Below are positions 1 to 9,664 of a stretch of DNA of 64,000 nt, piece by piece. A program made the position numbers and the translations under genes. Numbering within the stretch: position 1 is the stretch's first letter; each line of letters starts with the position of its first letter. Source of the DNA: Sediminihabitans luteus. Lineage in GTDB: Bacteria > Actinomycetota > Actinomycetes > Actinomycetales > Cellulomonadaceae. The notes below the pieces were generated by a model. It did no database searches. It was not told the origin of the DNA and saw nothing but the letters and a program-made list of their open reading frames with translations. Where the stretch lies: the NCBI RefSeq assembly GCF_002797595.1, contig NZ_PGFE01000006.1, positions 1 to 64,000 on the forward strand, in the 5' to 3' direction.

Positions 1-113
1 GACCCGGCCAGGACCACGGGCTCGAGGCCTGCGCGCGCGGCGTAGACCGCGGCGGTGTACCCGGACGGGCCGGACCCGATGATGACCAGATCGTGAATCT
101 CTTGCATCGACAT
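1..113 (-). CDS. trxB: Thioredoxin reductase, N-terminal fragment
   Basis: This is the 5' end of a minus-strand gene that leaves the window at base 1. The 37 visible residues start with the Rossmann FAD-binding fold of NADPH-dependent thioredoxin reductase, which returns oxidised thioredoxin to its dithiol form in the cytoplasm. The diagnostic motif is GSGPSGYTAAVYAARAGL, a GxGxxG dinucleotide-binding loop followed by the first helix, typical of bacterial TrxB. Two in-frame ATG codons are available, at 113 and 107. The one at 113 is preferred because a -10-like hexamer ends 6 nt upstream, the spacing seen before other leaderless genes here. The catalytic CxxC lies outside the window, so the assignment rests on the FAD motif only. 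Confidence 0.85.
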   Translation of the reverse strand, partial: MSMQEIHDLVIIGSGPSGYTAAVYAARAGLEPVVLAG

Positions 114-119
114 GCTTCT

Positions 120-148
120 ATGTTGACAGACATCGATGCACCCGGCAA
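120..148 (-). promoter_or_regulatory. Candidate trxB promoter
   Basis: Read on the minus strand, TTGCCG (148-143) is followed after 17 bp by CAACAT (125-120). The hexamer ends 6 nt before the ATG at 113. The spacing is that of a primary sigma-factor promoter giving a leaderless transcript. I do not see the GGGAAT/GTT pair of a SigR promoter, which often controls trxB in actinobacteria. Confidence 0.4.
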
Positions 149-246
149 GTGCTGGATAGAAGAAGTTCGATGCAGCCTCGTGCGGGGCTGACGATCGACG
201 AACGGTCCAGTGTCGTCGGCGCGAGACGCCCACGGGCGGGCCGCCG

Positions 247-1902
247 ATGCGCGAGAGTGGGACGGTGACGCACCCCGCACCGCCTCCGAGCACCCTCGAG
301 AACCCGCGCGCCGCCCGCCCCGGTGGGACCTGGTGGGCCGCCCTCGCGGGCGTGGTCGCCGCGGCCACCGGGTTCGCCGTCGCCGAGGTCGTCGCGCTCG
401 TGGTCTCGCCCGCCGCGAGCCCGATCCTCGCGGCCGGGGCAGCGGTCGTCGACCAGGTGCCGCCGTGGCTCAAGGACTTCGCGGTCGCGACGTTCGGTAC
501 GTACGACAAGGCGGTGCTCCTGGCCACCATGGCCGTCGTCCTCGCGCTCGGCGCGGCGCTCGCCGGCTGGCTCGAGCTGCGCCGTCGCCCCGGGGGCACC
601 CTGCTGCTCGTCGCGGTCGGCACGGTCGGTGCCGCCGTCGCGGTCTCACGACCCGAGGCGACACTCTGGTGGGCGCTGCCCACCGCCGTGGGTGTCGCGG
701 TCGCGGCGCTCGTGCTCCGCGCGGCGACGTCCCGCCTCGTGGACTGGCAGGACGACGTCGCCGCGGTCGCGCGGTCGCGCGACGAACCGCCGACCGAGTC
801 CCCGCGCACGGCGGCCGAGCGGCGCGTCGAGATCGACCGCCGGCGGTTCCTGACGTACACCGGCGTCGCGGCCGTCGGCGCGGTGCTCGTGGGCGTCGGC
901 GCGCGGGCGCTCGCGGCCGGGGCCCGGGGCGTGAGCGCCGTCCGCGCCGCGATCCGGCTGCCTGCCGCCGCGACGCCCGCGGCCGCCGTGCCTGCGGGCG
1001 CCGAGCTCGGGATCGCGGGCCTCGCGCCCTACGTGACGCCCAACGACGACTTCTACCGGATCGACACCGCCCTGCGCGCGCCCCAGGTCGACCCGGACAC
1101 CTGGGTCCTCAAGGTCACCGGCATGGTCGACGAGCCGTTCGAGATCACCTTCGCCGAGCTGCTCGCGCTGCCGCTCACCGAGCACCACGTGACCCTCACG
1201 TGCGTCTCGAACTACGTCGGGGACGACCTCGTCGGCAACGCGCTGTGGCTCGGGTACCCGGTGCGCGAGCTCCTCGCCCGCGCCGCACCGCAGGCGGGTG
1301 CTGACATGGTGCTCTCGACGAGCGTGGACGGCTGGACCGCCTCCACACCGCTCGACGTGCTCCAGGACACCGGGCGCGAGTGCCTGCTCGCGGTCGGCAT
1401 GAACGGCGAGCCGCTGCCCGTCGACCACGGGTTCCCCGCCCGGCTCGTCGTCCCCGGCCTCTACGGGTACGTCTCGGCGACCAAGTGGGTCACCGAGCTC
1501 AAGGTCACGACGTTCGCGCAGGACCTCGCCTACTGGTCGACGCGGGGCTGGACGCCGCGTGGCCCGATCAAGCTCGCGAGCCGCATCGACACCCCGTCCG
1601 TGGGCGTCACGCTCGACGCGGGGACGGTCACGGTCGCCGGCGTCGCGTGGCACCAGCACACCGGGATCGCGAAGGTCGAGGTGCAGGTCGACGACGAGGA
1701 ATGGGTCGAGGCCGAGCTCGCCGAGGTCGTCTCGGCCGACACCTGGCGGCAGTGGGTGCACCGCTGGGACGCGACGTCGGGGAGCCACACGCTGCGGGTG
1801 CGCGCGACCGACGCCGACGGCCAGGTGCAGACCTCCGACACGGCGCCGCCCGCCCCGGACGGTGCGACCGGCTGGCACGAGGTCGACGTGCGGGTGCGCT
1901 GA
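247..1902 (+). CDS. Polytopic sulfite-oxidase-family molybdopterin oxidoreductase
   Basis: The 551-residue protein has a membrane region and an exported molybdenum-cofactor domain. Residues about 28-160 contain four to five hydrophobic helices. A twin-arginine-like motif RRRFL (198-202) precedes a further hydrophobic stretch to about 225, suggesting Tat export of the rest. Residues about 265-430 match the sulfite oxidase/MsrP Moco fold; Cys319 in LTCVSNYVG is the expected Mo ligand, and GFPARLVVPGLYGY is the family's conserved loop. Residues about 440-550 resemble the Mo-co dimerisation domain. The likely role is a periplasm-facing oxidation or reduction of sulfite-like or sulfoxide substrates, but the substrate cannot be read from sequence. 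The start is ATG 247; GTG 262 is an alternative. It appears to be a single-gene unit upstream of the Cys-Cys leader. Confidence 0.8.
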   Translation: MRESGTVTHPAPPPSTLENPRAARPGGTWWAALAGVVAAATGFAVAEVVALVVSPAASPILAAGAAVVDQVPPWLKDFAVATFGTYDKAVLLATMAVVLALGAALAGWLELRRRPGGTLLLVAVGTVGAAVAVSRPEATLWWALPTAVGVAVAALVLRAATSRLVDWQDDVAAVARSRDEPPTESPRTAAERRVEIDRRRFLTYTGVAAVGAVLVGVGARALAAGARGVSAVRAAIRLPAAATPAAAVPAGAELGIAGLAPYVTPNDDFYRIDTALRAPQVDPDTWVLKVTGMVDEPFEITFAELLALPLTEHHVTLTCVSNYVGDDLVGNALWLGYPVRELLARAAPQAGADMVLSTSVDGWTASTPLDVLQDTGRECLLAVGMNGEPLPVDHGFPARLVVPGLYGYVSATKWVTELKVTTFAQDLAYWSTRGWTPRGPIKLASRIDTPSVGVTLDAGTVTVAGVAWHQHTGIAKVEVQVDDEEWVEAELAEVVSADTWRQWVHRWDATSGSHTLRVRATDADGQVQTSDTAPPAPDGATGWHEVDVRVR

Positions 1903-1941
1903 GGAGTGCTCCGGCACGGGCGACCGCTCCGCGGACGCCCC

Positions 1942-1971
1942 TTGCGCGGTACGCCCGCGACCCCGCAGACT
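1942..1971 (+). promoter_or_regulatory. Candidate promoter of the Cys-Cys leader
   Basis: TTGCGC (1942-1947) and CAGACT (1966-1971) are separated by 18 bp. The -10 hexamer ends 7 nt before GTG 1979, so transcription would begin at or next to that codon and the leader would be translated without a 5' UTR. Confidence 0.4.
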
Positions 1972-1978
1972 GTGCGAC

Positions 1979-2068
1979 GTGAACCGGACCGACGCCCCGC
2001 AGCGCGACATCGCGCTGCCCGCGAGCGCGTCGGCCACCCTCGGGGTCCGCACCGTCACCTGTTGTTGA
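1979..2068 (+). CDS. Putative 29-residue leader peptide ending Cys-Cys
   Basis: A short reading frame starts with GTG 7 nt after a -10-like CAGACT and ends RTVTCC, with two consecutive Cys codons (2060-2065) directly before the stop. It has no Shine-Dalgarno sequence, consistent with leaderless translation. Short actinobacterial upstream frames ending in tandem cysteines are known as cysteine-responsive attenuators of sulfur genes in mycobacteria. Here the frame is followed by two hairpins and, 145 bp later, by an unrecognised 66-residue gene. It lies just downstream of a sulfite-oxidase-type gene. Its existence as a translated frame is inferred from position and codon content; coding bias cannot be judged over so few codons. 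Confidence 0.45.
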   Translation: MNRTDAPQRDIALPASASATLGVRTVTCC

Positions 2069-2070
2069 CG

Positions 2071-2133
2071 GCTCGCCGACCCGAGGCAGCACGGATCCGG
2101 GGTTGGTGAGCGGTACGCGCGCACGGTCGCGTA
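2071..2133 (+). promoter_or_regulatory. Hairpins after the Cys-Cys leader
   Basis: Three bases past the leader stop, GCTCGCCGACCC (2071-2082) can pair with GGGTTGGTGAGC (2100-2111): 12 pairs, two of them G-U, around a 17-nt loop. A second 6-bp hairpin joins TACGCG (2114-2119) to CGCGTA (2128-2133). A ribosome stalled on the terminal cysteine codons would cover the base of the first hairpin. That makes an attenuator possible but does not prove one. Confidence 0.35.
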
Positions 2134-2213
2134 TCAGGGATCGCCCGGCACCCCTCCCTCCGAGGAACGCCAGGTCTGCGTACCCACGCCGACACCCCCG
2201 AGAAGGACCCGTC

Positions 2214-2414
2214 ATGGTCTCCGTCCACGCCAGCACCTCCCGCACCAGCACCTCCCACGCACTGACCAGCCACGCCCTGACCGGTCACGCCCCGACGTCG
2301 CGCGAGCACGCGACCGACGCGCCGCACCGCGCCGTCGACCTCACCGCCCCGGGCCTGACGATCGAGCACCTCGTCGCGCTCGACATCGAGGCGTTCAGCG
2401 CACGCGCCCGGTGA
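2214..2414 (+). CDS. Small hypothetical protein with pentapeptide repeats
   Basis: A 66-residue protein of unknown family. Its ATG follows a good ribosome site (AGAAGGA, 2201-2207). Residues 6-30 are five tandem pentapeptides of the type A-L-T-S-H, encoded by 15-bp direct repeats. The second half is non-repetitive and ends in LTIEHLVALDIEAFSARAR, which could form one amphipathic helix. There is no signal peptide, membrane segment or cysteine. It is followed at once by a terminator hairpin, so the Cys-Cys leader and this gene appear to form their own transcription unit. I do not recognise it. A repeat-bearing N-terminus with a conserved-looking C-terminal tail could be a small regulator or a modified-peptide precursor, but no modification enzyme is adjacent. 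Confidence 0.5.
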   Translation: MVSVHASTSRTSTSHALTSHALTGHAPTSREHATDAPHRAVDLTAPGLTIEHLVALDIEAFSARAR

Positions 2415-2422
2415 CCTCGGGA

Positions 2423-2454
2423 GCCCGGTGACGGTCGTCCGGCGGTCACCGGGC
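2423..2454 (+). terminator. Terminator hairpin after the 66-residue gene
   Basis: GCCCGGTGAC (2423-2432) and GTCACCGGGC (2445-2454) form a perfect 10-bp stem, 9 bp after the stop codon. There is no U-tract, as is usual in actinobacteria. Confidence 0.55.
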
Positions 2455-2548
2455 GGCCACCAGCGCGACACCTCGCCGTGGAACGATCCACGCCGGTCGG
2501 GTCGCTCGTGACCCCGACGCACCTTCGGGGCGAGCGCAGGGAGTCGGC

Positions 2549-4663
2549 GTGGGGCAGGCAACAGCGGTACGCGTCACGCCACCCGACGCGCCCACCGGTA
2601 CGCGCGAGGCGACCACGGCGCGGCGGTTCCTGCCCGAGGTGCAGGCGCTGCGCGCCCTCGCGGTCGGGATCGTCGTCGCCTACCACCTGCGCCCCGACCT
2701 CCTGACCGGGGGATTCGTCGGCGTCGACGTGTTCTTCGTGATCTCCGGGTTCCTCATCACCGGCCACATGGTCCGCGAGGTGCGCAGCACCGGACGGGTC
2801 GACCTCGCACGGTTCTGGGCGGCCCGGGCGCGTCGGATCCTGCCGGCAGGTCTGCTCGTCCTCGCCGTCGTGACCGCGGTGGCGACGTTCGTCTACCCCG
2901 TCACGGCGTGGGCGGGGCTCGCCCGGCAGGCGCTCGCATCCGTGCTCTACGTCCAGAACTGGGTCCTCGCAGCGGACTCGGTCGACTACCTCGCGCTCGA
3001 CGACGCCCCGACGGTCTACCAGCACTTCTGGTCGCTCGCGGTCGAGGAGCAGTTCTACCTGCTGTGGCCGCTGCTCGTCGCCGGGGTCGCCGCCGCTGTC
3101 GCCGCCCGACGGGCGCACGGACCCGCCCTGACCCGCGGGCTGCTGGCCGTGTTCGGCGCGGTCGTCGCGGCCTCCTTCGTGTGGAACGTCGTCGAGGTCG
3201 CCCAGGGCGACGCCTCGGCGTACTTCTCGACGTTCACCCGGCTCTGGGAGCTCGGCGCGGGCGGGATGCTGGCGCTCGGCGTGCGGTACACCGACGCCCA
3301 CGCGCTGCCCAGGGCCCTGCTCGCCCTCGCCGGCGTGTCCGCGATCGTCGTCGCCGCGGTGACCTTCGACGGTGCCACGCCGTTCCCGGGACCGGCCGCG
3401 CTCGTGCCCGTGCTGGGGACGGCCGCCGTGATCGCCGCCGGACGTACGCGCGGGCCGGCGTCGTTGACCCCGCTCGTCGACCTCGGTCCCGTGCGACGCC
3501 TCGGGGACCTCTCGTACTCCCTGTACCTGTGGCACTTCCCGGTCATCGTGCTCTACACGGTGCACGCCGGGAGGACGCCGACGCTCATGGAGGCCGCCGG
3601 CCTCCTGGGCCTCTCGCTCCTGCTCGCGGCAGCGACCTTCGAGCTGGTCGAGCAACCGGCACGCCGTGCGTCGGGGCTGCGCGAGCGTCCTTGGCGCACG
3701 CTCGGGCTCGCGGCCGGGGCGATGGTGCTCGTCGCGCTCCTGACGCTCGTCTACCCCGTGCGGACCCACCAGGTCGAGGCGGCGTGGTCGGGTGGATCGG
3801 TCGAGGTCGGCCCTGGGTCGGGCTTCGGTGCGGAGGCGTCGGACGGCGGTGCCCCGCGCGCCTTCGTGCACGGCACGCGGGCGATCGTCCCGAGCCCGGT
3901 CGACGCGCCCGCCGACCTCTCGGCGCTGGTCGACGAGGAGGCCTGCGCCGCGCACCAGCGCGAGACGTCGGCCCGGACGTGCGAGGTCGGTGACCCCGCC
4001 GCGACGACCGTCGTCGCGCTCGTGGGCGACTCGCACGCGCAGATGCTCGCGACACCCCTCGCGCAGCTCGCCGAGCAGCAGGGCTGGCGACTGGTCACGT
4101 ACCTGCACGACTCGTGCCCCTACTCGCACGAGCGGCGGATCATCGAGGCCGAGGGGAAGCTCGTGTGCCAGGAGCCCAACGCGCGCACGCTCGACGCGCT
4201 GCTCGCGTTGCGCCCCGCGCTCGTCGTGACCTCGTCCTACGCGGCGGGGGAGTACGTGGACACCGGCACGGGGCACACCCCCGGCGCGGTCGGTCTCGCG
4301 GGCGCGTGGGACGAGCTCGCGGACGCCGGGATCGAGGTGCTCGCGGTCAAGGACGCCCCGCGCCCGCGCCGCGACGTCGTGCGCTGCACGGCCGAGCACG
4401 TCGACGACCCCGACGCCTGCGCGGTCGACCGCTCGGACGCGGTCACCGACCACGCGGCGTTCGACGAGGCGGTCCGGCTCTCGCCGCGGACCACCGCCCT
4501 CGACCTCACGGACCGGTACTGCGGACCGAGCTCCTGCCCGCCGGTGATCGGGAACGTGCTCGTCTACCGCGACACCAACCACATCACGGACACGTTCGCC
4601 CGCTCGCTCGCCCCGGACCTCGCCGCGGCCGTCGGAGCACTCGTCGAGACGGACGAGGGCTGA
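2549..4663 (+). CDS. OafA/YrhL-type acyltransferase with SGNH domain
   Basis: The 704-residue integral membrane protein is an acyltransferase-3 enzyme that moves acetyl or similar groups across the membrane onto a surface polysaccharide, cell-wall or secreted acceptor. Residues about 25-385 carry the N-terminal motif [14 protein letters not shown], an invariant-type His46 in VVAYHLRP, and about ten hydrophobic helices. Residues about 400-704 form an extracellular SGNH-hydrolase-like domain. Ser495 lies in GDSH, and the Asp675/His678 pair in DTNHIT completes the triad. Length and domain order match two-domain OafA-like proteins. Start GTG 2549 follows AGGGAG. No polysaccharide cluster surrounds it, so the acceptor is unknown. 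The T-box leader of ileS begins a few bases after its stop. Confidence 0.88.
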
Positions 4664-4680
4664 CCCCCCGGGTGCCGCGC

Positions 4681-4945
4681 TACCATGGAGGCACAGGCGT
4701 CGACCCGGCCATCACCGGCGAGCCTCCGGAAGAACAGGCACCGCTCGCCGGGCGGCCGCCCCAGTAGAACCGGACGGGTGGGCCCGTGACAGCCTGGATC
4801 AGAGCGGTCGACGCCGTGCAGCCCGGACCCGGGCGAGCGACGTCGGCAAGCGGGGTGGTACCGCGGCTGCGTCGTCCGACACCGGGCACGACGGTCGTCC
4901 TCGCACCACGGAACGACCGGACCACCCGAGCCCCAGGAGCCACCG
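4681..4945 (+). promoter_or_regulatory. T-box leader RNA controlling ileS
   Basis: The 285 bp before ileS hold an actinobacterial T-box that senses uncharged tRNA-Ile. The T-box core is GGGGTGGTACCGCGG (about 4852-4866), where TGG pairs with the tRNA acceptor end. ATC at 4711-4713, in GGCCATCACCGGCGAGCC, is the likely isoleucine specifier in a very short stem I. An 8-bp stem CCGGCGAG/CTCGCCGG (4715-4722/4745-4752) closes the next element. The ribosome site AGGAG (4935-4939) precedes ATG 4950, and no terminator with a U-tract lies between. This suggests control of translation initiation, as known for actinobacterial ileS T-boxes. TACCAT (4681-4686) may be the -10, which would place the RNA 5' end near 4692. 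Confidence 0.85.
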
Positions 4946-4949
4946 AGCC

Positions 4950-7900
4950 ATGGCCTACCCGCTGCACCGCACCCCGAACGACGCGCCCGGCGAGGGCGCG
5001 GCGATCCCCGCCTCCCCGGACCTGCCCGCGCTCGAGCGCGACGTGCTCGCGTTCTGGAAGGCCGACGACACGTTCCGCGCGTCGGTCGAGGCGCGCGACG
5101 CCGGCACGGACGGCGCCAACGAGTTCGTGTTCTACGACGGCCCGCCCTTCGCCAACGGCCTGCCGCACTACGGCCACCTGCTGACCGGGTACGCCAAGGA
5201 CGTCGTCCCGCGCTACATGACGATGCGCGGGCGGCGCGTCGAGCGCCGCTTCGGGTGGGACACGCACGGCCTGCCGGCCGAGCTCGAGGCCGAGCGCGTG
5301 CTCGGGATCACCGACAAGTCGCAGATCGAGGCCATGGGCATCGAGGCCTTCAACGAGGCCTGCCGCACGTCGGTGCTCACGTACACCAAGGAGTGGCAGG
5401 AGTACGTCACGCGCCAGGCGCGCTGGGTCGACTTCGAGCACGACTACAAGACGCTCGACGTGACCTTCATGGAGTCGGTCATCTGGGCGTTCAAGGAGCT
5501 GCACACCAAGGGCCTCGCCTACGAGGGCCACCGGGTGCTGCCCTACTGCTGGCGCGACGAGACGCCGCTGTCGAACCACGAGCTGCGCATGGACGACGAC
5601 GTCTACCAGTCGCGCCAGGACCCCGCGCTCACGGTCGGGTTCCGCCTCGGTGGCACGCCCCACCAGAGCGAGGCCGCGGGCGCGCTGCTGCTCGTGTGGA
5701 CGACGACGCCGTGGACCCTGCCGTCCAACCTGGCTGTCGCCGTCGGGCCCGAGGTCGAGTACGTCGTCGTCTCCCCGGGCGAGGGCACAGCGCTCGAGGG
5801 CGAGCGCGTCGTGATCGGCGCGGCCCGCCTGGGCGCGTACGCCAAGGAGCTCGGCGAGGACCCGACGGTCATCGCGACCCTGACGGGCGCCGAGCTCGTC
5901 GGCCTGCCCTACACCCCGCCGTTCGACTACTTCGCGGGCCACGAGAACGCGCACCGGGTGCTCGCGGGCGAGTTCGTCACGACCGAGGACGGCACCGGGA
6001 TCGTGCACCTCGCGCCCGCGTTCGGCGAGGACGACATGGCGGTGTGCGCCGCGGCGGGCATCGCGCCCGTCGTGCCCGTCGACGCGCGCGGCCGGTTCAC
6101 GAACGACGTCGCGGACTACGCGGGCGAGCAGGTGTTCGACGCGAACCCGGTCATCATCAAGGACCTCAAGGACGCCTCGGGCCCGCTCGCGCGCACCGCG
6201 CCCGAGCTGCGCACGCGCGTGCTGCGCCACGAGACGTACCAGCACTCGTACCCGCACTGCTGGCGCTGCCGCAACCCCCTGATCTACAAGGCCGTGTCGA
6301 GCTGGTTCGTGCGCGTCACGGAGTTCCGCGACCGCATGGTCGAGCTCAACCAGCAGATCGACTGGACGCCCGAGCACATCAAGGACGGCCAGTTCGGCAA
6401 GTGGCTCGCGGGGGCGCGCGACTGGTCGATCAGCCGCAACCGCTACTGGGGCACCCCCATCCCGGTCTGGGTGTCGGACGACGCGAACCACCCCCGCACG
6501 GACGTGTACGGGTCCCTGGCCGAGATCGAGGCGGACTTCGGTCGCCTGCCGCGCAACGCGGCCGGCGAGCCCGACCTGCACCGCCCGTACATCGACGACC
6601 TCACGCGCCCCAACCCGGATGACCCGACCGGTCGGTCGACCATGCGCCGCATCCCGGACGTGCTCGACGTGTGGTTCGACTCGGGCTCGATGCCGTTCGC
6701 GCAGGTGCACTACCCGTTCGAGAACGCCGACTGGTTCGAGCACCACTACCCGGGCGACTTCATCGTCGAGTACATCGGGCAGACGCGCGGCTGGTTCTAC
6801 CTGCTGCACGTGCTCGCGACCGGGCTGTTCGACCGGCCGGCGTTCCGCTCGGCGGTCTCGCACGGGATCGTGCTCGGCTCGGACGGGCGCAAGATGAGCA
6901 AGTCGCTGCGCAACTACCCGGACGTGACCGAGGTGCTCGACCGCGACGGCTCGGACGCGATGCGCTGGTTCCTCATGAGCTCGCCGATCCTGCGCGGCGG
7001 CAACCTGATCGTGACCGAGGAGGGCATCCGCGACTCGGTGCGCCAGGTGCTGCTCCCGCTGTGGAGCACGTACTACTTCTTCACGCTCTACTCGAACTCG
7101 GCCGCGGACGGCGCCGGGTACGTCGCGCAGCGCGTGACGCCCGAGCGCGTGGCCGGCCTGCCCGCGCTCGACCGCTACCTGCTCGCGCGCACCCGGTCGC
7201 TCGTCGAGGACGTCACGGCGCAGCTCGACACGTACGACATCGCGGGCGCGTGCGAGACCGTGCGCGTGCACCTGGACGTGCTGACCAACTGGTACGTGCG
7301 CACCCAGCGCGAGCGCTTCTGGTCCGAGGACGCGGACGCGTTCGACACGCTGTGGACCGCGCTCGAGACGCTCACGCGCGTCATGGCGCCGCTCGCCCCG
7401 CTGCTGAGCGAGGAGGTCTGGCGCGGGCTGACGGGCGGTCGCTCGGTGCACCTGACGGACTTCCCCGAGCTCGCGGGCGCCGACGGGCAGGTGCTCGTCG
7501 CCGACGACGCCCTCGTCGCCGCGATGGACCAGGTCCGTGCGATCACCTCGCAGTCGCTGGGTCTGCGCAAGGCGAACGCGCTGCGCGTGCGCCAGCCCCT
7601 GCGCACGCTCACGGTCGCGGTCACTGACCCGGACGCGCTCGCGCCCTACCGTGAGCTGCTCGCGGCCGAGCTCAACGTCAAGGCCGTCGAGCTCGTCGCG
7701 CTCGACGACGAGGTCACGGCCCGTTTCGGGATCTCCGAGAGGCTCGCGGTCAACGCGCGTGCCGCCGGGCCGCGCCTCGGGCGCGGCGTGCAGGCGGTCA
7801 TCAAGGGCGCCAAGGCCGGGGCCTGGTCCACGGACGAGGCCGGTGCCGTCGTCGTGCAGACCGACGCCGGGCCGGTGCCGCTCCTCGAGTCCGAGTACGA

Positions 7901-8264: not shown

Positions 8265-9664
8265 GCGACCGCAAGGCCGCCGACGCGCGGCGCGCCGCCC
8301 GCCGCGAGGCCGCCGACCACGCGGCCGGGGCCGACCTCGCCGCCGTCTACGCGCACATCATGGACCGTGCGCCCGAGCACGACATCGACCCGACCCTCGA
8401 CCGCGTCGCGCGCGTGCTCGAGCTGCTCGGCGACCCGCACAGGGCGTTCCGCACGATCCACCTGACCGGGACGAACGGCAAGACCTCGACCGCGCGCATG
8501 GCCGAGCGCCTCGTGCGCGAGCACGGCCTGCGCACGGGCCGGTTCACGAGCCCGCACCTGACGAGCGTGACCGAGCGCATCGCGATCGACGGCGCGCCGA
8601 TCAGCCCCGCGCGGTTCGTCGAGGTCTGGGAGGACGTCGCGCCGTACGTCGGCGTGGTCGACCGCGAGTCCCAGGAGGCGGGCGGGCCGCGCCTGAGCTT
8701 CTTCGAGGTGCTCACGGTCATGGCCTTCGCGGCGTTCGCCGACGCGCCGGTCGACGTCGCGATCGTCGAGGTCGGGCTCGGCGGCACCTGGGACTCGACG
8801 AACGTCGTCGACGGAGACGTCGCGGTGATCACGCCGATCGGGATCGACCACGAGCGATACCTCGGCTCGACGATCCCCGAGATCGCCGAGAACAAGGCGG
8901 GCATCGTCAAGGACGGCGCGACCGTCGTGCTCGCCGAGCAGGACCCGGCGGCCGAGGTCGTCGTGCTCGAGGCCGCCGCGGCGCGCAGCGCGCGCGTGCT
9001 GCGTGACGGGCTCGAGCTCGAGGTGGTCGAGCGCACGGTCGCGGTCGGCGGCCAGGTGATCGACCTGCGCACGCCCGCCGGCCTGTACACCGAGATCTTC
9101 CTGCCGCTGCACGGCGCGCACCAGGCGCACAACGCGCTGCTCGCGCTCGCGGCGGTCGAGGCCCTGCTCGGCGGGCGCGCGCTCGGCGGGGAGGTCGTCG
9201 AGGCGGCGTTCGGCGACGCGAGCTCACCCGGGCGCCTCGAGGTGGTCCGGTCGAGCCCCACGGTGCTCGTCGACGCGGCGCACAACCCGGCCGGCGCCGA
9301 GGCGCTCGTCGCGGCGCTCGCGGAGGCGTTCGCGTTCACGCACCTCGTGGGCGTGGTCTCGATCATGGCCGACAAGGACGTCGAGGGGCTCCTCGCGGTG
9401 CTCGAGCCGCACCTCGCGGAGATCGTGCTCACGCGCAACAGCTCGGACCGCGCGGCCGACCCGCAGGACCTCGTCGACGTCGCGAACGACGTGTTCGGCG
9501 AGGACCGCGTGCACTCGACCGAGCGGCTCGACGAGGCGCTCTCGCTCGCGGCCGACCTCGCCGAGCGCGACGACGTGGTCGGCGTCGGCACGGGCACGGG
9601 CGTGCTCGTGACGGGCTCGGTCATCACCGCCGCGGACGCGCGCGCGCTGCTGCGCCGAGCCTGA
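8261..9664 (+). CDS. folC: Folylpolyglutamate synthase / dihydrofolate synthase
   Basis: The 467-residue Mur-ligase-family enzyme joins glutamate to dihydropteroate and extends polyglutamate tails on folates, using ATP. The N-terminal P-loop [13 protein letters not shown] lies at about residues 69-80. The central ATPase and the C-terminal domain with [12 protein letters not shown] (about 340-351) follow in the usual order. The start ATG overlaps the ileS stop by 4 bp. In many actinobacteria folC is followed directly by a DUF4233 membrane protein and ndk. Here these lie about 5 kb further on, after the dhaKLM-TetR-MFS block, and folC ends in a hairpin cluster. Confidence 0.95.

Follow-up and report, generated by a model that had tools for sequence, protein, structure and literature searches.

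In leaderless polycysteine attenuators, the ribosome site of the following gene is masked by RNA structure and becomes free only when a ribosome stalls, and Canestrari reportedly put forward a translation attenuation model for cysteine genes in mycobacteria in 2020. Leaderless Cys-rich frames have been described in mycobacteria before cysA2, Rv0485, and nirA (Shell 2015, PMC4633059), and candidate leaders with Cys runs before cys operons in Mycobacterium and Propionibacterium and before cbs in Bifidobacterium (Seliverstov 2005, PMC1262725); as far as the available text of both papers goes, such leaders mostly precede genes making or importing cysteine. Because Rv0485 is counted as hypothetical in the available part of PMC4633059, unusual targets of Cys leaders have precedent. 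The accessible text of PMC1262725 also reports no conserved terminator-capable hairpin behind the Mycobacterium leaders and describes a pseudoknot, the LEU element, before leuA in Actinobacteria, and that of PMC13236596 states, citing Canestrari 2020, that cysteine genes in M. smegmatis are regulated by translation attenuation. The available portion of PMC8079986 lists eight Streptomyces leaders, none of which it assigns to cysteine; according to its Table 4, the leader peptide of Streptomyces lividans metL contains CMCRRMC, and this motif suggests that the leader might respond to cysteine in addition to methionine. Literature screened by title or abstract opening, mostly outside subscription work, yielded nothing on the unit of leader and small gene described here.

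Our best reading of the leader in the window, i.e. the whole 64-kb stretch of DNA that was analyzed, is that it resembles polycysteine attenuators, minus their usual sulfur-metabolism target. The first-pass annotation of this DNA had described a promoter-like pair followed 7 nt later by a GTG frame of 29 codons ending TGT-TGT-stop, a 12-bp hairpin 3 nt after the stop, and a small gene of 66 residues with a good ribosome site. Direct reading confirmed the promoter-like pair and the frame, all 12 of 12 hairpin positions pair, and the ribosome site reads AGAAGGA. The features of the locus and its neighbors are as follows:

247–1902: molybdopterin oxidoreductase of the sulfite-oxidase type, upstream neighbor (family search)
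1942–1971, + strand: promoter-like TTGCGC (1942–1947) and CAGACT (1966–1971), separated by 18 nt, 7 nt 5′ of the GTG (direct reading)
1979–2068, + strand: GTG leader frame of 29 codons ending TGT TGT TGA (direct reading)
2060–2065, + strand: tandem terminal Cys codons of the leader, the putative sensor codons (adjacent Cys pair in relatives)
2071–2111, + strand: hairpin H2, arms 2071–2082 and 2100–2111, 12/12 pairs, loop with GCAG and GATC (covariation)
2094–2097, + strand: GATC in the H2 loop, candidate pseudoknot strand 1 (complementary to 2139–2142)
2112–2135, + strand: hairpin H3, outer stem of 8 bp (predicted folding)
2139–2142, + strand: GATC 3′ of H3, candidate pseudoknot strand 2 (complementary to the H2 loop tetramer)
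2173–2179, + strand: GGTCTGC block, 41 nt 5′ of the small-gene start (conserved among relatives)
2201–2207, + strand: Shine-Dalgarno-like AGAAGGA (direct reading; AGGA lies within 20 nt of the small-gene start in 42/46 loci)
2214–2414, + strand: small gene of 66 codons, ATG at 2214 to TGA at 2412–2414, with a conserved, predicted C-terminal helix (profile search, pN/pS, structure prediction)
2424–2453, + strand: perfect 9-bp hairpin lacking a U tract, directly 3′ of the small gene (direct reading)
2549–4663: acyltransferase gene of the AT3-SGNH type, SucT-like but under the cut-off of the SucT model, between the small gene and ileS

Like the mycobacterial polycysteine leaderless frames, the window leader is a short frame at a presumed 5′ end with a Cys cluster at its end and a gene downstream. 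Their usual target, however, lies in sulfur or cysteine metabolism whereas here it is a small gene without a family match, and in 30 loci two hairpins come after the leader stop, the first with a covarying stem and a loop that likely pairs further downstream. With the leaders of Seliverstov 2005 (PMC1262725, available text) it shares Cys runs near the stop and the lack of an obvious terminator, but no conserved hairpin capable of termination is reported there for Mycobacterium while a covarying stem, also without a U tract, is present here in 30/46 loci. The LEU element, compared by its description in the same partial text, is likewise conserved, resembles a pseudoknot, and is linked to the metabolism of an amino acid, but the RNA in the window is preceded by a Cys leader. 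In a classical transcription attenuator, a terminator with a U tract would be expected; a search for such intrinsic terminators between 1850 and 2600 found none.

The first relatives of the small protein were found by a protein-level search across 200 family genomes. With a nine-row profile, the small gene was matched in 48/221 family genomes and 9/25 genera (E 0.01 or better); the match in G194 was rejected as false because it sits inside a larger frame, leaving 47 genomes in eight genera. A 25-row profile matched 15/396 genomes of the order: ten belong to the family, all with E 1.7e-7 or better, and five from other families match weakly (E 0.0015–0.0082). It also matched 3/394 genomes of the class, i.e. 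the genome studied here and two weak others; the five and the two weak matches were judged from short match length and E-values. A scan of named genomes gave seven loci in six genomes, namely Cellulomonas sp. PhB143, Paraoerskovia sediminicola (two loci), three Cellulosimicrobium, and Rarobacter faecitabidus. In Paraoerskovia sediminicola (NZ_AP027729.1; L112, L113), the small gene lies near both ends of a 3.45 Mb record, and the paired copies are perhaps an unresolved assembly overlap. The counts below come from related genomes, which are non-independent samples with some rows near copies, and use small-gene starts picked by eye. G145 (frame running on) and G040 (contig end) are absent from row set A4 and kept in the Cys counts, row set A2 lacks L059 and L061, G074 stands outside the table of 46 loci and outside the 30 loci with H2, and one of two copies in G060 and a second, weak match in G094 were not used.

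A Cys-rich leader precedes the small gene in 47/47 accepted loci (46 tabulated plus G074), and this comparison strongly supports that the leader is tied to the unrecognized small gene. The tabulated leaders are 24–34 codons long, and 45/46 contain adjacent Cys codons, the exception being G044 with a single Cys codon at the end; leaders missed at first end in ..ACCRCR (two), ..LCCCSCCA, ..SCCCQPVTFR or ..ACCRGL. In G074, the leader ends in ..CRCC and is accompanied by a GTG-started small frame and a similar-looking stem. Cys accounts for 120/1244 residues in the 46 leaders and for 1/3547 in the small proteins; for comparison, the three neighboring proteins in the window contain 16/2359. A conservation check set beforehand, on the Cys codons and the 66-residue frame, found both conserved in close relatives. 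Within the window, the frame at 1979–2068 is the only one on either strand that is short, has CC near its end, and is preceded by promoter-like hexamers.

Upstream of the tabulated leader starts, TTG occurs at −40 to −32 in 40/46 (window counted) and a [CT]AnnnT hexamer 5–8 nt 5′ of the start in 44/46; 39/46 have both and 7/46 lack one or both. Because these hexamers keep their distance from the start, the arrangement fits leaderless transcripts, and we infer that the leader is translated from a leaderless transcript start at or beside the GTG. A generic sigma-70 scan of 1850–2600 called no promoter. We scanned the 1.5 kb before ileS (254 bases in L177) in 17 family genomes of other genera lacking the small gene and found neither a Cys leader with promoter-like hexamers nor the small-gene motif; one of them has a Cys-ending frame there, without a promoter-like hexamer. 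Folding of the leader frames themselves gave a median z of −2.0, with 35/46 below −1. Because the window reaches only −1.16 and G044 +2.2, we kept this signal outside our claim.

The H2 stem begins 3 nt 3′ of the leader stop, and the Cys codons begin 11 and 8 nt before it. It is present in 30/46 loci (g1, g8, g12, g24, and G095 of g25), in which 359/360 cells are standard pairs and both-side changes occur at pairs 7, 9, 10, 11, and 12; in 17 g8 rows we fitted a bulge of one base where it gave the best match, which favors pairing at pairs 9–12. On 28 rows without the bulge, RNAalifold returned eight H2 stem pairs, one with both-side changes, and GCAG in the loop was invariant across 28 aligned rows. 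H3 is predicted in 30/30 H2-class loci (0–9 of 100 mononucleotide shuffles fold equally well), and in 30/30 the H2 loop tetramer is complementary to the tetramer directly 3′ of H3, as GATC/GATC in five loci and GACC/GGTC in 25. Because only one of the four loop pairs covaries, a pseudoknot formed by this pairing is likely rather than proven. The GGTCTGC block is found in 28/30 of these loci; in 27 it lies 40–53 nt 5′ of the small-gene start and in the remaining one 74 nt away. The other 16/46 loci (g20, g5, g18, and most of g25), separated by the start motif and by eye, have spacers of 45–141 nt; across all 46, the small gene starts 45–222 nt after the leader stop. Among the tabulated leaders, 35/46 start with GTG and 11 with ATG, and 16/46 loci lack the H2 start motif.

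A covariance model found H2-type RNA once in each of 4/396 genomes of the order, all Cellulomonadaceae, under strict filters with which misses are possible. Rfam gave five weak matches in window positions 1–6000 at E up to 5, none overlapping 1979–2414, and no match at gathering score in the loci of four relatives. Comparison of the loci shows joint conservation of the leader, its Cys codons, and a small gene that looks coding, with a covarying stem in 30 of them.

We suggest, with a probability of roughly 0.7, that the locus is a cysteine-responsive, ribosome-mediated leader controlling one small gene. Transcription would begin at or beside the GTG and ribosomes would load straight onto the leader. 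With ample charged Cys-tRNA, the ribosome would pass the Cys codons and leave at the stop, upon which the downstream RNA would fold (H2, H3, and the probable loop pairing) and the small gene would stay low. During cysteine shortage, the ribosome would wait at the Cys codons, cover the 5′ arm of H2, and block the fold, and the small gene would be expressed; the direction of the response and the inhibitory nature of the fold are our inference. That a waiting ribosome would cover the 5′ arm of H2 is the strongest anatomical hint in the sequence. Counting against the proposal are the single Cys codon of G044, the 16/46 loci with no H2 start motif, the 7/46 leaders short of one or both hexamers, and the lack of an intrinsic terminator, together with the inconsistent effect of simulated stalling and the low share of spacers with strong C-over-G bias given below.

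One way in which such a leader could work is translation attenuation as in mycobacteria, in which the RNA hides the ribosome site of the small gene and stalling frees it. The leader anatomy is alike, and the available text of PMC13236596 cites such regulation for cysteine genes in M. smegmatis. Moreover, in G045 the openness of the Shine-Dalgarno sequence was 0.59 with a stalled ribosome vs. 0.11 in naked RNA; however, it was already 0.61 with a translated leader without stalling and, therefore, stalling adds nothing in this locus. The small-gene starts, lying up to 222 nt past the leader stop and never closer than 45 nt, also speak against this reading. When we simulated stalling with ViennaRNA in the 46 loci, the ribosome site did not open consistently, rising by >0.05 in nine loci and falling by >0.05 in seven, with a mean change of 0.02 in the 30 H2-class loci and −0.01 in the other 16 and a fall of 0.10 in the window. 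The folding used a fixed definition of the ribosome site. Because it takes no account of pseudoknots or of the order in which the RNA is transcribed, its result is weak evidence, and we consider translation attenuation possible but doubtful.

Alternatively, a stalled ribosome might block Rho-dependent termination in the spacer. The lack of a U-tract terminator would be expected in this case, the available text of PMC1262725 proposes Rho sites behind Cys leaders, and in g20, g25, and g5 most of the short spacers are rich in C; a C-over-G bias in the top 5% was, however, found in only 14/46 spacers and the window ranks 0.157, and we hold Rho-dependent control to be unlikely. The earlier proposal of an attenuator with a new target is supported in part: the link between leader and small gene holds at 47 loci, but attenuation and a response to cysteine stay putative, and neither a terminator nor consistent sequestration of the ribosome site was found.

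We also considered that the RNA element might itself be the functional product or a ligand sensor, with the small frame incidental. Covariation of the H2 stem and the loop GCAG invariant in 28 rows would fit this idea, but the small frame is kept even where the H2 start motif is missing (16 loci) and its core has pN < pS only in frame, making it highly improbable. Finally, short frames are common in GC-rich DNA, but a chance frame ending in two Cys codons is refuted by conservation, as leader and small gene co-occur in 47 loci and the window holds a single such frame.

The small gene looks coding, with a signal in the proposed frame only: in the conserved core, mean pS was 0.41 and mean pN 0.21, with pN < pS in 915/1035 pairs, and shifted frames reversed this relation (pS/pN 0.19/0.25 in 561 stop-free pairs and 0.18/0.26 in 780). 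An ExLVxxDI-type core is present in 46/46 small proteins, and in a 44-row alignment the positions near the C-terminus include an invariant Glu, Asp, and Ile together with nearly invariant Thr, Leu, Val, Ala, and Arg. AlphaFold2 (mean pLDDT 68, pTM 0.37) predicted a helix with confidence at residues 50–65 and gave low confidence to the N-terminal half. No Pfam or NCBIfam family fits this protein: neither the leader (1979–2068) nor the 66-residue product had a match at E up to 1, and scans of 44 members returned only isolated single-member weak matches (best E 0.034 and 0.018, respectively). Among solved structures, profile searching returned a single match of 11 residues (E 0.98). The product is Cys-poor and probably disordered apart from its conserved C-terminal helix. 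Our guess, and the weakest step of the proposal, is that it most likely acts as a binding peptide, tuning a partner when sulfur is short.

The same genome has a further Cys leader outside the window, a 30-codon ATG frame ending CPDNSCRCC-stop (L159:8537–8629; contig C1 of G000), which stops 66 nt 5′ of the listed start of a sulfite-reductase frame. Two frames of the PAPS-reductase type and one GTP-binding frame come next, and from their order we take the frames 3′ of sulfite reductase (sir) to be cysH, cysD, and cysN. A similar leader frame lies ~2.2 kb 5′ of PAPS-reductase-type matches in G044, G024, and G060. A strict leader finder returned no leader at nine sulfate-gene loci; without the −35 requirement, it returned SCRCC-type leaders in four genomes and six other frames, of which five look like chance. 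In G002 (L167, − strand, 9047–9139 of the reverse complement), a frame ending ..CRARCSCLCCRS ~2.3 kb before a cysH-type match may be another Cys leader. Cys leaders thus appear to serve the classic sulfate-assimilation target in this genome, which favors the attenuator reading of the window leader. Beyond what had been annotated before, the locus has gained a second hairpin, a likely loop pairing, and a Cys-poor target, and the genome this other Cys leader.

Together, the comparisons suggest that related bacteria may switch the small gene on when cysteine is short. In our best reading, the leader belongs to an established type of cysteine-responsive attenuator, and what is new is its target and the RNA element. 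A more far-reaching version, in which a Cys leader, a pseudoknotted RNA, and a Cys-poor micro-protein acting on a partner through its C-terminal helix form a family-specific module for cysteine starvation, is tentative and falls just short of even odds. A Cys leader tied to an unrecognized micro-protein would in itself place an uncharacterized protein in the sulfur-starvation response and make its function testable, and it would add a covarying RNA element without an Rfam match in the stretches scanned.

Two neighbors were rejected as partners of the unit. The sulfite-oxidase-type enzyme pointed out upstream by the first-pass annotation is indeed present in the window and was found in the tested loci of g1, g8, and g24, but 0/13 others (L072, L075–L086) have it, and this molybdenum enzyme is not a constant partner. 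Because the acyltransferase gene lies between in the window and ileS is distant or missing in relatives (among the 21 loci L066–L086, >3 kb away in L068, L077, L081, and L082 and not found in L069 and L074), ileS was rejected as the leader target. The acyltransferase gene looks like an insertion because ileS lies directly 3′ of the small gene in L066 and L067. A T-box-like leader of ileS at ~4680–4949 was recognized by eye, without a hit in Rfam up to E 5, and the 3′ end of the small frame reaches into the T-box-like region in several relatives. At the edge of the window, positions 1–113 on the − strand encode the N-terminus of a protein cut by the window boundary, which we presume to be thioredoxin-reductase-like.
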